DNA from: Myxococcaceae bacterium
Lineage (GTDB): Bacteria; Myxococcota; Myxococcia; Myxococcales; Myxococcaceae
NCBI GenBank assembly: GCA_017881265.1
Contig: JADGRA010000062.1
Location: forward strand, 1-64,000
Direction: 5' to 3'
DNA: 64,000 nucleotides
Numbering within the stretch: the stretch's first letter is position 1; each line of letters opens with the position of its first letter. Positions 57,040 through 59,177 of the stretch are shown here, in pieces. Below the pieces are notes generated by a model. It was not told where the DNA came from and made no database searches. It saw only the letters and a list, made by a program, of their open reading frames with translations. A program made the translations under genes and the position numbers.

Positions 57040-57655
57040 GGCCGCCGTGCTCGACGCCGAAGACCTCCACAAGCGCTACGGACGGAACCAGGTGCTTCGC
57101 GGTGCCAGCCTGCGGGTTTGGCCTGGGGGCCTGGTCGCGGTGCTCGGCGAAAACGGGGCTGGCAAGAGCACGCTGCTGCGCATCCTCGCCGGTGCCGAAG
57201 CTCCGGACCGGGGGCGCGTGCGTCACCAGGGGTCCGTTGGGTACTGCCCACAGGAGCCGCTCCTGTACGGGCAATTGACGCTGGACGAGCACTTTCGCCT
57301 CTTCGGCGCCGCCTACCGCCTTCCGAGCGCGGAGCTGCGCAGGCGCGGCGAGAGGTTGATTGAGCGGTTTGGTCTCGAACGTCACCGCCGCACGCCGGTC
57401 GAGGCGCTGAGCGGCGGGACCCGACAGAAGCTCAACCTGGCCGTGGCGCTGCTGCGCGATCCGGCGGTGCTCCTGCTGGACGAACCCTACTCAGGCTTCG
57501 ACCGCGACGCCTATCGCCAATTCATCTTGTGGACCGAGGAGGCCAAGCGCCGCGCTCAGGCGGTCGTCCTCATCACCCACTTGCTGCTCGAGCCGGGGCA
57601 CTTCGATGTCGCGCTGGAGCTGCGCGACGGGAAGCTGGAGGTTGCCGATGGCTGA
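57011..57655 (+). CDS. ABC transporter ATP-binding protein
   Basis: LGENGAGKSTLLRILAG, ALSGGTRQKLNLAVALLRDPAVLLLDEPYSGFDRDA. Confidence 0.93.
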   Translation: MNPSPSSTPEAAVLDAEDLHKRYGRNQVLRGASLRVWPGGLVAVLGENGAGKSTLLRILAGAEAPDRGRVRHQGSVGYCPQEPLLYGQLTLDEHFRLFGAAYRLPSAELRRRGERLIERFGLERHRRTPVEALSGGTRQKLNLAVALLRDPAVLLLDEPYSGFDRDAYRQFILWTEEAKRRAQAVVLITHLLLEPGHFDVALELRDGKLEVADG

Positions 57656-59177
57656 CAGCCTTAACCGCGTGGCCGTCGCCGCAGCACTGCTCTTCCGTGA
57701 CGTCTTCCGTCGACGTTTCGCCTTGGTCCTCATCTTCGTTGTTCCGGCACTCTTCGATACCGTGGTGCTGCTCACCACGACCTCCCGGCCCCTCCGGGTG
57801 ACCGTCGCGGCACTTCGCGAGGACCTGGCTGACGGGACAAACCCTGGTGGCACACCTCTCGACCTGGGGGTCATCGACGACGGCGTTCGCGCACTGGATC
57901 AGCGGCAGCTGTCGCTCGTCTTCCTTGGGCACGCTGCGGTCTGCTTTCTTGCCTGCTTTCTCGCCTTCAACCTCGTGTCACGGCGGCGGGAAGTGGACAG
58001 AAGGCTCGTGCTCGCCGGATACCGGACGGTCGAGGTGCTCCTGGCCAAGGTGGCCGTCCTTGGGCTCATCGTCGTCCTGCTCGTCGGCTGGCAGACGGCA
58101 CTGATTGTGCCGTGGCTCGCGCCGCGACAGCCCGCGCTGCTCTCGCTGGGGCTTCTGCTCGGCGGCCTCACCTATGGAGGCATCGGTCTCCTCATTGGCG
58201 CGGTGGTAAGGCAGGAACTCGAGGGGATTTTTCTCATCGTCCTGTCGACGAATGTCGACCCGGGCTGGCTCCAGAACCCCATCTATTTTGGTCAGAGCCA
58301 ACGTCCCCAGCTCATCTCCGCCCTGCCGGGCTTTGCCTCGACGCAGCTCACGGTGCTGGGGGCCTTCTTCGAGGATTGTCCGCAAGCGCTCGTTTCTCAG
58401 GGGGTGCTGTCCTGCGGCGCCATCCTGGTCCTGGCCGTGACGCTCTTCGGCCTTCGCATTCGGCCACCACGCGCCACCGGCGAGCGGACCCGGGCCCGAC
58501 TCCGTTTCGGAAAGACGCTGCTCGTGGGCTACGCGCTGTGGATTGCCGCCTTCGAGTTGGTGGGGCGCTACGCGTCGACGCTGCAGACGCGTGACCTGAC
58601 CACGGCGTGGGACCGCGCCATCCCCCTCGTCCCGGCGTTCATCTGGCCGTACGAGGCTTGCTACGCGCTACCGCTGGTCGCGCTCTGGCTGTTCCGGGAC
58701 TGGCATCGGTTCAACGTCGGCCTACTCGCCATCCTGCTCGCCAGCCTGTGTGCCTTCGCTGTCTACCTGTTTGTCCCGGTCGCCTTCCCGCGGCCGGTCC
58801 TCGGCACGGGTGTGCCCGAGCAGCTGCTGGCGGCCGAGTACGCGGCCGACTTCTTCCCGGGCGCCAACAAGCTCCCCAGCCTTCATGTCGCCATCTCGTG
58901 GATTGTGTTGTTTTCCGTCTGGGGGCAGGCGAGGCACCGGACGGTGGACCTGCTGGCGCTTGCGCTGGTCAGCGCCATCACGGCTTCCACGCTCCTGGTG
59001 AAACAACACCTGCTGCTCGACGTCGTGACCGCCGTGCCGCTGGCTGCTGCCGTCTTCGCAATCGCCCACCGGCTGTATTGGAGGGTCACCGCGCCCGGGG
59101 ACCCTCCGGAAACCGCCCTGGTTCAGTTGCTCGTGCCCACGTCCTGGCGTCGACTGCAAAGGCGGCCATCCCCATGA
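57648..59177 (+). CDS. fusion: ABC-2-type permease domain plus PAP2/AUR1-like phosphatase-transferase domain
   Basis: N-half multi-TM permease following an ABC ATPase; C-half NKLPSLHVAISWIVLFSVWG and TLLVKQHLLLDVVTAVPLAA match PAP2 motifs (PSxH, HxxxD). Confidence 0.75.
   Translation: MADSLNRVAVAAALLFRDVFRRRFALVLIFVVPALFDTVVLLTTTSRPLRVTVAALREDLADGTNPGGTPLDLGVIDDGVRALDQRQLSLVFLGHAAVCFLACFLAFNLVSRRREVDRRLVLAGYRTVEVLLAKVAVLGLIVVLLVGWQTALIVPWLAPRQPALLSLGLLLGGLTYGGIGLLIGAVVRQELEGIFLIVLSTNVDPGWLQNPIYFGQSQRPQLISALPGFASTQLTVLGAFFEDCPQALVSQGVLSCGAILVLAVTLFGLRIRPPRATGERTRARLRFGKTLLVGYALWIAAFELVGRYASTLQTRDLTTAWDRAIPLVPAFIWPYEACYALPLVALWLFRDWHRFNVGLLAILLASLCAFAVYLFVPVAFPRPVLGTGVPEQLLAAEYAADFFPGANKLPSLHVAISWIVLFSVWGQARHRTVDLLALALVSAITASTLLVKQHLLLDVVTAVPLAAAVFAIAHRLYWRVTAPGDPPETALVQLLVPTSWRRLQRRPSP

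Follow-up and report, generated by a model that had tools for sequence, protein, structure and literature searches.

A gene in a 64,000-nucleotide stretch of a contig from a Myxococcaceae bacterium (the window) raises two questions: whether a single protein joins an ABC-2 permease to a PAP2-type lipid enzyme, and what such a protein would do. The gene (57648-59177, + strand) is a single open frame from an ATG at 57648 to a TGA at 59177 and encodes 509 residues plus the stop; the original prediction of an uninterrupted 510-aa frame was right about its continuity and had counted the stop into its length. A GGAGG ribosome-binding site lies ahead of the ATG, the start overlaps the stop of an ABC ATPase gene (57655) by 8 bp, and the stop forms an ATGA overlap with the start of a fatty acid hydroxylase gene. 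We divide the protein into an ABC-2-type permease N-half (residues 1-270; 57648..58457, +), a K/R-rich linker at about residues 271-288 (58458..58511, +), delimited by its charge and by the point at which identity to an acidobacterial PEMT-PAP2 protein begins, and a C-half with a PAP2_3 (Aur1-like) domain and a tail (residues 289-509; 58512..59174, +). Linker residues 272-286 include six K or R and one D or E, and hydropathy and charge predict a cytoplasmic location for this segment. We are highly confident that the two-domain architecture is real. A chance frame would not yield a complete PAP2 domain that has its catalytic residues and is modelled at a pLDDT of 91.

The C-half scored 35.8-37.6 bits against PF14378 (PAP2_3; cut-off 27), and its match to PF01569 stayed below cut-off. 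Both motifs named in the original prediction are present, PSLH at residues 410-413 and KQHLLLD, an instance of KQHxxxD, at 452-458. P410, S411, H413, H454 and D458 are invariant among homologues, with His413, His454 and Asp458 in all 74 alignment rows; Arg382, part of FPRP, is invariant in ten homologues and conserved in at least 90% of the 74. The first PAP2 motif (Kx6RP), described earlier as not obvious, is there in part: its RP (R382) is present, its Lys is absent, and the closest relative, from acidobacterial genome G415, has FPKP. AlphaFold2 modelled the C-half with a pLDDT of 91.2 and a pTM of 0.87 from the 74-row alignment, which was used for this half only; a single-sequence AlphaFold run on the whole protein gave a pLDDT of 44. 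The top eight Foldseek matches of this model were all PAP2 lipid enzymes, in the order human SMSr with ceramide (8ijq; prob 1.00, TM 0.57, E only 3e-3, 11% identity), LpxE, PgpB, IPC synthase (rank 4), Aur1-Kei1 (rank 5), PgpB again, a B. subtilis PGP phosphatase and, once more, PgpB. A profile of the 74 homologues searched against all solved chains placed Aur1 first (E 5e-4), followed without significance by LpxE, PgpB and B. subtilis YodM. This half thus has the six-helix PAP2 fold, the structural match anticipated for it, and the proposed likeness to inositol-phosphorylceramide synthases stands at the level of fold and profile, but the genome's likely IPC synthase gene is another one, on contig C55. 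The protein has six plus six TM segments with a K/R-rich N-terminus, linker and C-terminus, so the PAP2 catalytic loops are predicted from hydropathy and charge to face outside.

The N-half (residues 1-291 alone) matched PF12698 (E 4.8e-7, 29.6 bits, curated cut-off 31.6) and PF01061 (E 3.3e-5, 24.0 bits, curated cut-off 26.9), both over residues 88-199 and about 2-3 bits short of the cut-offs. A genome-wide search ranked it ahead of two other candidates and just behind the permeases whose scores clear the cut-off. Hydropathy gave six TM segments, with a 45-residue outside loop after TM1 and a K/R-rich, chiefly R-rich, loop between TM2 and TM3 (residues 107-127), the loop in which ABC-2 proteins have their coupling helix. 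By eye, this loop aligns with the corresponding E-R-E/G-T-L...G-K stretch in the genome's remaining PF12698-matching ABC-2 permeases; an hhalign comparison with six ABC-2 permeases gave a weak match (P 0.022), though the N-half aligned at the right place. The overlapping upstream gene (57011..57655, +) encodes a 214-aa ABC ATPase (PF00005, 97.6 bits), the cognate of the fused permease, with a complete set of motifs (Walker A GENGAGKS, LSGG signature, Walker B VLLLDEP and H-loop) and drrA, below cut-off, as its best NCBIfam match. With the overlapping ATPase gene added to the Pfam and topology evidence, we consider the assignment of the N-half as an ABC-2-type permease safe, in keeping with the permease-like N-half directly after an ABC ATPase gene that had been predicted.

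Several observations bear on whether the frame might really be two genes. Codon-position GC is in frame and continuous through the linker, and the linker region offers no ATG from which PAP2 could start as a gene of its own. A 478-aa PEMT plus PAP2 protein of G415 is 48% identical to the fusion from residue 270, in the linker, onward; together with the continuity of the frame this argues against a frameshift, and it fixes the domain boundary independently. Separate genes with a frameshift here were not what homologues showed: in related loci PAP2 is joined to other lipid enzymes, and in the wider PAP2_3 family the domain also occurs as a stand-alone gene. An assembly or sequencing artefact that welded two genes together is very improbable, even in a draft genome of 81 contigs and with the same fusion seen in no second genome, given the single frame with unbroken codon-position GC and no ATG at which PAP2 could begin separately, a position in the middle of a 102-kb contig, and a closest homologue whose PAP2 is likewise the C-terminal portion of a fusion, with similarity from the linker onward.

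The join itself is rare. Matches to the N-half were absent from the 198 other genomes of the phylum, and searches with the full-length protein, covering 60 relatives' genomes, 14 from other groups and 297 from a second phylum, returned matches to the C-half only outside the window's genome. A GTDB scan with P0001 as the sole query gave no match; a scan with PAP2 homologues used a pattern demanding Y or F after KQH where the window has KQHL, so that close relatives are not excluded by it. Of 80 GTDB PAP2 loci checked for N-terminal extensions and adjacent ABC ATPases, two, L095 and L144, had such an ATPase close by. One belongs to a drrAB-like pair lying some 0.8 kb upstream, the other to a transporter of the branched-chain amino-acid type, and neither stands out as a partner. 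A plasmid collection held one distant PAP2, and a limited literature search, itself weak evidence, turned up no report of PAP2 and an ABC permease joined in one protein. The suggested search for the same architecture in other genomes thus turned up PAP2 fused to other lipid enzymes and no second ABC-2-PAP2 join, which is unique as far as searched; this shows rarity, not absence.

The fusion lies in a run of + strand genes in the order desaturase, PLP enzyme, PEMT-Lgt-like protein, 270-aa protein, ABC ATPase, fusion and hydroxylase, and from the PLP enzyme onward neighbours overlap or almost touch, resembling a translationally coupled operon. The fatty acid desaturase (52315..53433, +; PF00487, 112 bits) may be part of the cluster. 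The PLP enzyme (53832..54791, +; PF00291, start uncertain) has the ACC-deaminase/D-cysteine desulfhydrase fold, with NCBIfam matches far under their cut-offs, and likely belongs to the operon. It is followed by a 478-aa protein (54788..56224, +) in which a PEMT-like methyltransferase is fused to an Lgt-like domain (PF04191 and PF01790, both above cut-off), two domains that in relatives flank a PAP2 domain. The usual Lgt signature is GRxGNFxNxExxG; the window's Lgt-like domain carries GRVGCLTYGCCFG where that signature usually stands and for this reason is probably not a lipoprotein enzyme. Two genes upstream of the fusion, 56227..57039 (+) encodes an uncharacterised 270-aa protein whose family in relatives we use as a marker of the module and which had no match in Pfam, NCBIfam or PDB; it looked like a CrtC/AttH-type lipocalin, an assignment that found no Pfam or PDB support. 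The gene after the fusion (59174..59938, +) encodes a 254-aa SCS7/FA2H-like fatty acid hydroxylase (PF04116) with four His clusters, for which yeast SCS7 (E 3.8e-18), a ceramide fatty-acid hydroxylase, is the sole relative of solved structure. Directly downstream on the same strand (59928-63307) are a rhomboid-family protease and, identified by eye, an FHA-containing sigma-54-type regulator.

We detected the marker family in 11 of 199 genomes of the phylum and in G415, which belongs to the same phylum as L074 (a Vicinamibacteria MAG), namely Acidobacteriota. Across 11 related loci, a PEMT-type gene stands beside the marker in ten; seven of the loci have PAP2 fused to PEMT and/or an Lgt-like domain, three carry a degenerate PAP2 and one has none; compared with these loci, PAP2 attached to an ABC permease is found in the window's genome only. 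A single chain combines PEMT, PAP2_3 and Lgt-like domains in four genomes by Pfam and five by profile (G047, G051, G083, G095 and, by profile and frame reading, G043), in that row and each preceded by the 270-aa gene (L062:8663-10672, L064:4437-7058, L067:8088-9908, L068:7270-9273 and L022:3058-5823). In G043 the marker gene is found twice, about 2 kb apart and with equal scores (L022:1124-1912 and 3104-3892), which may be read either as a recent tandem duplication or as an assembly repeat. G070 has a PAP2-Lgt chain with no recognisable PEMT, and in G415 (L210:6475-11701) the marker gene adjoins a PEMT-PAP2 gene, accompanied by a PLP decarboxylase and an aldehyde dehydrogenase. Chains with PEMT, a degenerate middle and Lgt occur in G009, G187 and G035 (L069:9070-10968, L065:7835-10390 and L224:6724-8718); these keep the TM region and have lost the PAP2 motifs, as read directly for G009 and G187 and, for G035, as judged from a profile that does not match. 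The locus with no PAP2, in G065 (L061), combines the marker with a PEMT-acyltransferase (PlsC) protein, a PLP decarboxylase and a radical SAM enzyme. No recognisable ABC partner was found near the other modules, and we found no description or name for this PEMT-PAP2_3-Lgt lipid module of Myxococcota.

The repeated joining of PAP2 to different partners inside one small gene set is a Rosetta-stone sign of joint work. As its partners in relatives are lipid-modifying enzymes, the pattern suggests that the window's PAP2 domain may act on a membrane lipid moved by this exporter. In a tree built without G415, the window's PAP2 formed a long branch separate from the PEMT-PAP2-Lgt ones, and because of this the domain may have been replaced here rather than moved. 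At L010/L103, L012, L016 and L018, PAP2_3 shares its frame with a desaturase-like region (532 aa) or a phytoene/squalene-synthase-like region (frames of 529-801 aa), with partners assigned by eye.

The SCS7-like neighbour brings up sphingolipids. The genome's SPT scored 392 bits against a Sphingobacterium SPT versus 244 against 2-amino-3-ketobutyrate ligase, and its gene is part of a run that also includes two GNAT-like genes and one NAD-epimerase-like gene (GNAT and epimerase assigned by eye), a set resembling the bacterial ceramide pathway of SPT, bCerS and CerR (PMC11087976). Elsewhere in Myxococcota, PAP2_3 genes lie near genes for myo-inositol-phosphate synthase, CDP-alcohol transferase and FA2H-like proteins; in 18 genomes, a number counted by eye and mostly from one genus, thus few independent events, an FA2H-like gene is at most 4.4 kb from PAP2_3. 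G097 has a complete-looking candidate locus for ceramide phosphoinositol (L204:5593-12674), with PAP2_3, inositol-phosphate synthase, FA2H-like hydroxylase, SPT and CerR. The clustering of PAP2_3, inositol-phosphate synthase and FA2H-like genes in the phylum agrees with reports of ceramide phosphoinositol in M. xanthus and of an Aur1-like enzyme, BT_1522, in Bacteroides (PMC9246714). Contig C55 of the window's genome holds another PAP2_3 gene, beside an inositol-phosphate synthase, which is likely the genome's IPC synthase; the window itself has neither the myo-inositol-phosphate synthase nor the PIP synthase with which inositol phosphorylceramide synthases cluster. The PEMT-Lgt module is also present in genomes whose best SPT-model score is about 310-320 bits, in the paralogue range and short of SPT grade (G047, G051, G083 and G187), which weakens a reading of the whole module as a sphingolipid pathway. 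Given the C55 gene set and these genomes, ceramide is a live candidate substrate of the fusion and not the leading one.

How might the protein work? We tentatively favour, at a little under an even chance, a lipid exporter with its own extracytoplasmic PAP2 domain that would dephosphorylate the delivered lipid or transfer a headgroup on it. The fusion would be the membrane subunit of an ABC-2-type exporter or flippase and would pair with the ATPase of the overlapping gene, presumably in a dimeric complex with two copies of each protein. Its cargo would be an amphiphilic lipid that bears or accepts phosphate, the product of the co-transcribed PEMT, Lgt-like and fatty-acid hydroxylase enzymes, carried across the inner membrane from the inner leaflet to the outer one. 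There, a PAP2 active site on the periplasmic side would strip the phosphate or swap the phospho-headgroup by PAP2 His-phosphoenzyme chemistry, and removal of phosphate at the exit would make export one-way. We infer four elements of this scheme: the topology, the direction, the coupling and the lipid as the module's own product. The domain calls, the PAP2 fold and profile, the catalytic R382, H413, H454 and D458, the complete ATPase motifs, the overlapping ATPase, fusion and hydroxylase genes, the recurrent fusion of PAP2 to the module's enzymes (PEMT-PAP2-Lgt, PAP2-Lgt and PEMT-PAP2) and the restriction of the marker family to 11 of 199 genomes all argue for it. However, the N-half falls just below Pfam cut-offs with a weak hhalign score (P 0.022), and with the fusion in one genome conservation cannot vouch for it; three module members with a TM region and no recognisable PAP2 indicate that the PAP2 step is dispensable in some, and the lack of a recognisable ABC near other modules indicates that export is not obligatory.

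We regard as possible, though rather doubtful, an arrangement in which the ABC permease would pass a lipid to the attached Aur1-like PAP2 domain on the outer face, which would set its headgroup or take off its phosphate and so make export irreversible, perhaps as a sphingolipid flippase and headgroup transferase. It is unlikely that the protein is specifically a ceramide exporter with an Aur1/SMS-like phosphotransferase that puts a headgroup on 2-hydroxylated ceramide during ABC flipping. The SCS7/FA2H-like gene downstream, an SPT with GNAT and NAD-epimerase genes like those for bacterial ceramide synthase and ceramide reductase, SMSr-ceramide and Aur1 among the fold and profile neighbours, and the 18 other genomes with an FA2H-like gene near PAP2_3, including one that also has inositol-phosphate synthase, SPT and CerR there, are consistent with that idea. 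Against it are the module's presence in four genomes with no SPT-grade gene, the PAP2_3 gene already adjoining an inositol-phosphate synthase in this genome, and a PAP2 on a long separate branch whose closest relative is in a PEMT cluster. Aur1/IPC synthase and BT_1522 share with the fusion the PAP2_3 profile and fold, a His-based site and an adjoining FA2H-like gene; they differ in having no ABC permease, the window's cluster differs in having no inositol-phosphate synthase, and identity is too low for a claim about the reaction. Likewise, human SMSr, a ceramide phosphoethanolamine synthase, is the best fold match of the C-half but a separate protein. Nor do we think it probable that the shared chain merely reflects gene adjacency, with halves that work alone or an unrelated export cargo: the fusion is unique to one genome and PAP2, joined to several different partners, looks promiscuous, but its partners in the modules are membrane lipid enzymes from that very cluster, and the ABC genes lie inside the lipid cluster with overlapping starts. 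Lower still stands a quite improbable kinship in function with the bacitracin resistance system of Bacillus licheniformis, where an ABC transporter is the product of bcrABC and the PAP2-class protein BcrC works as an undecaprenyl-pyrophosphate (UPP) phosphatase (PMC3435297, PMC5723303). Here the parts of BcrB and BcrC would sit on one chain, serving lipid-carrier recycling or resistance to cell-wall antibiotics. Both systems have an ABC ATPase, a small membrane permease and a PAP2 phosphatase in one operon, and PgpB, a PAP2 enzyme that also acts on C55-PP, is among the C-half fold matches. BcrB and BcrC, however, are separate proteins; the window's PAP2 part is of the PAP2_3/Aur1 class with PF01569 below cut-off, its neighbours are lipid-modifying enzymes rather than cell-wall or resistance genes, and no such resistance gene was found in the plasmid collection.

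DrrAB-type ABC-2 exporters likewise pair one ATPase with one six-TM permease, and drrA is the below-cut-off best match of the window's ATPase, but DrrB has no enzymatic C-terminal domain. The PEMT-PAP2-Lgt proteins of Myxococcota and the acidobacterial PEMT-PAP2 protein share the 270-aa marker, the PEMT and Lgt-like module and a fused PAP2_3; their PAP2 is fused to enzymes rather than to an ABC permease, and their surroundings show no recognisable ABC genes.

Lipid flippases are often identified with no known cargo, and a transporter joined to an enzyme that acts on that cargo makes both substrate and direction testable in one protein. The genome has ceramide genes, and the fusion adjoins a gene for an SCS7-like hydroxylase; bacterial sphingolipid flippases and transporters were unidentified as of 2024 (PMC11087976), and the ceramide reading, if true, would supply the flippase still missing in bacteria. 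The recurrent fusions define a small lipid module of 270-aa marker, PEMT, PAP2 and Lgt-like domain, and this surrounding module may prove a more lasting find than the fusion of a single genome.
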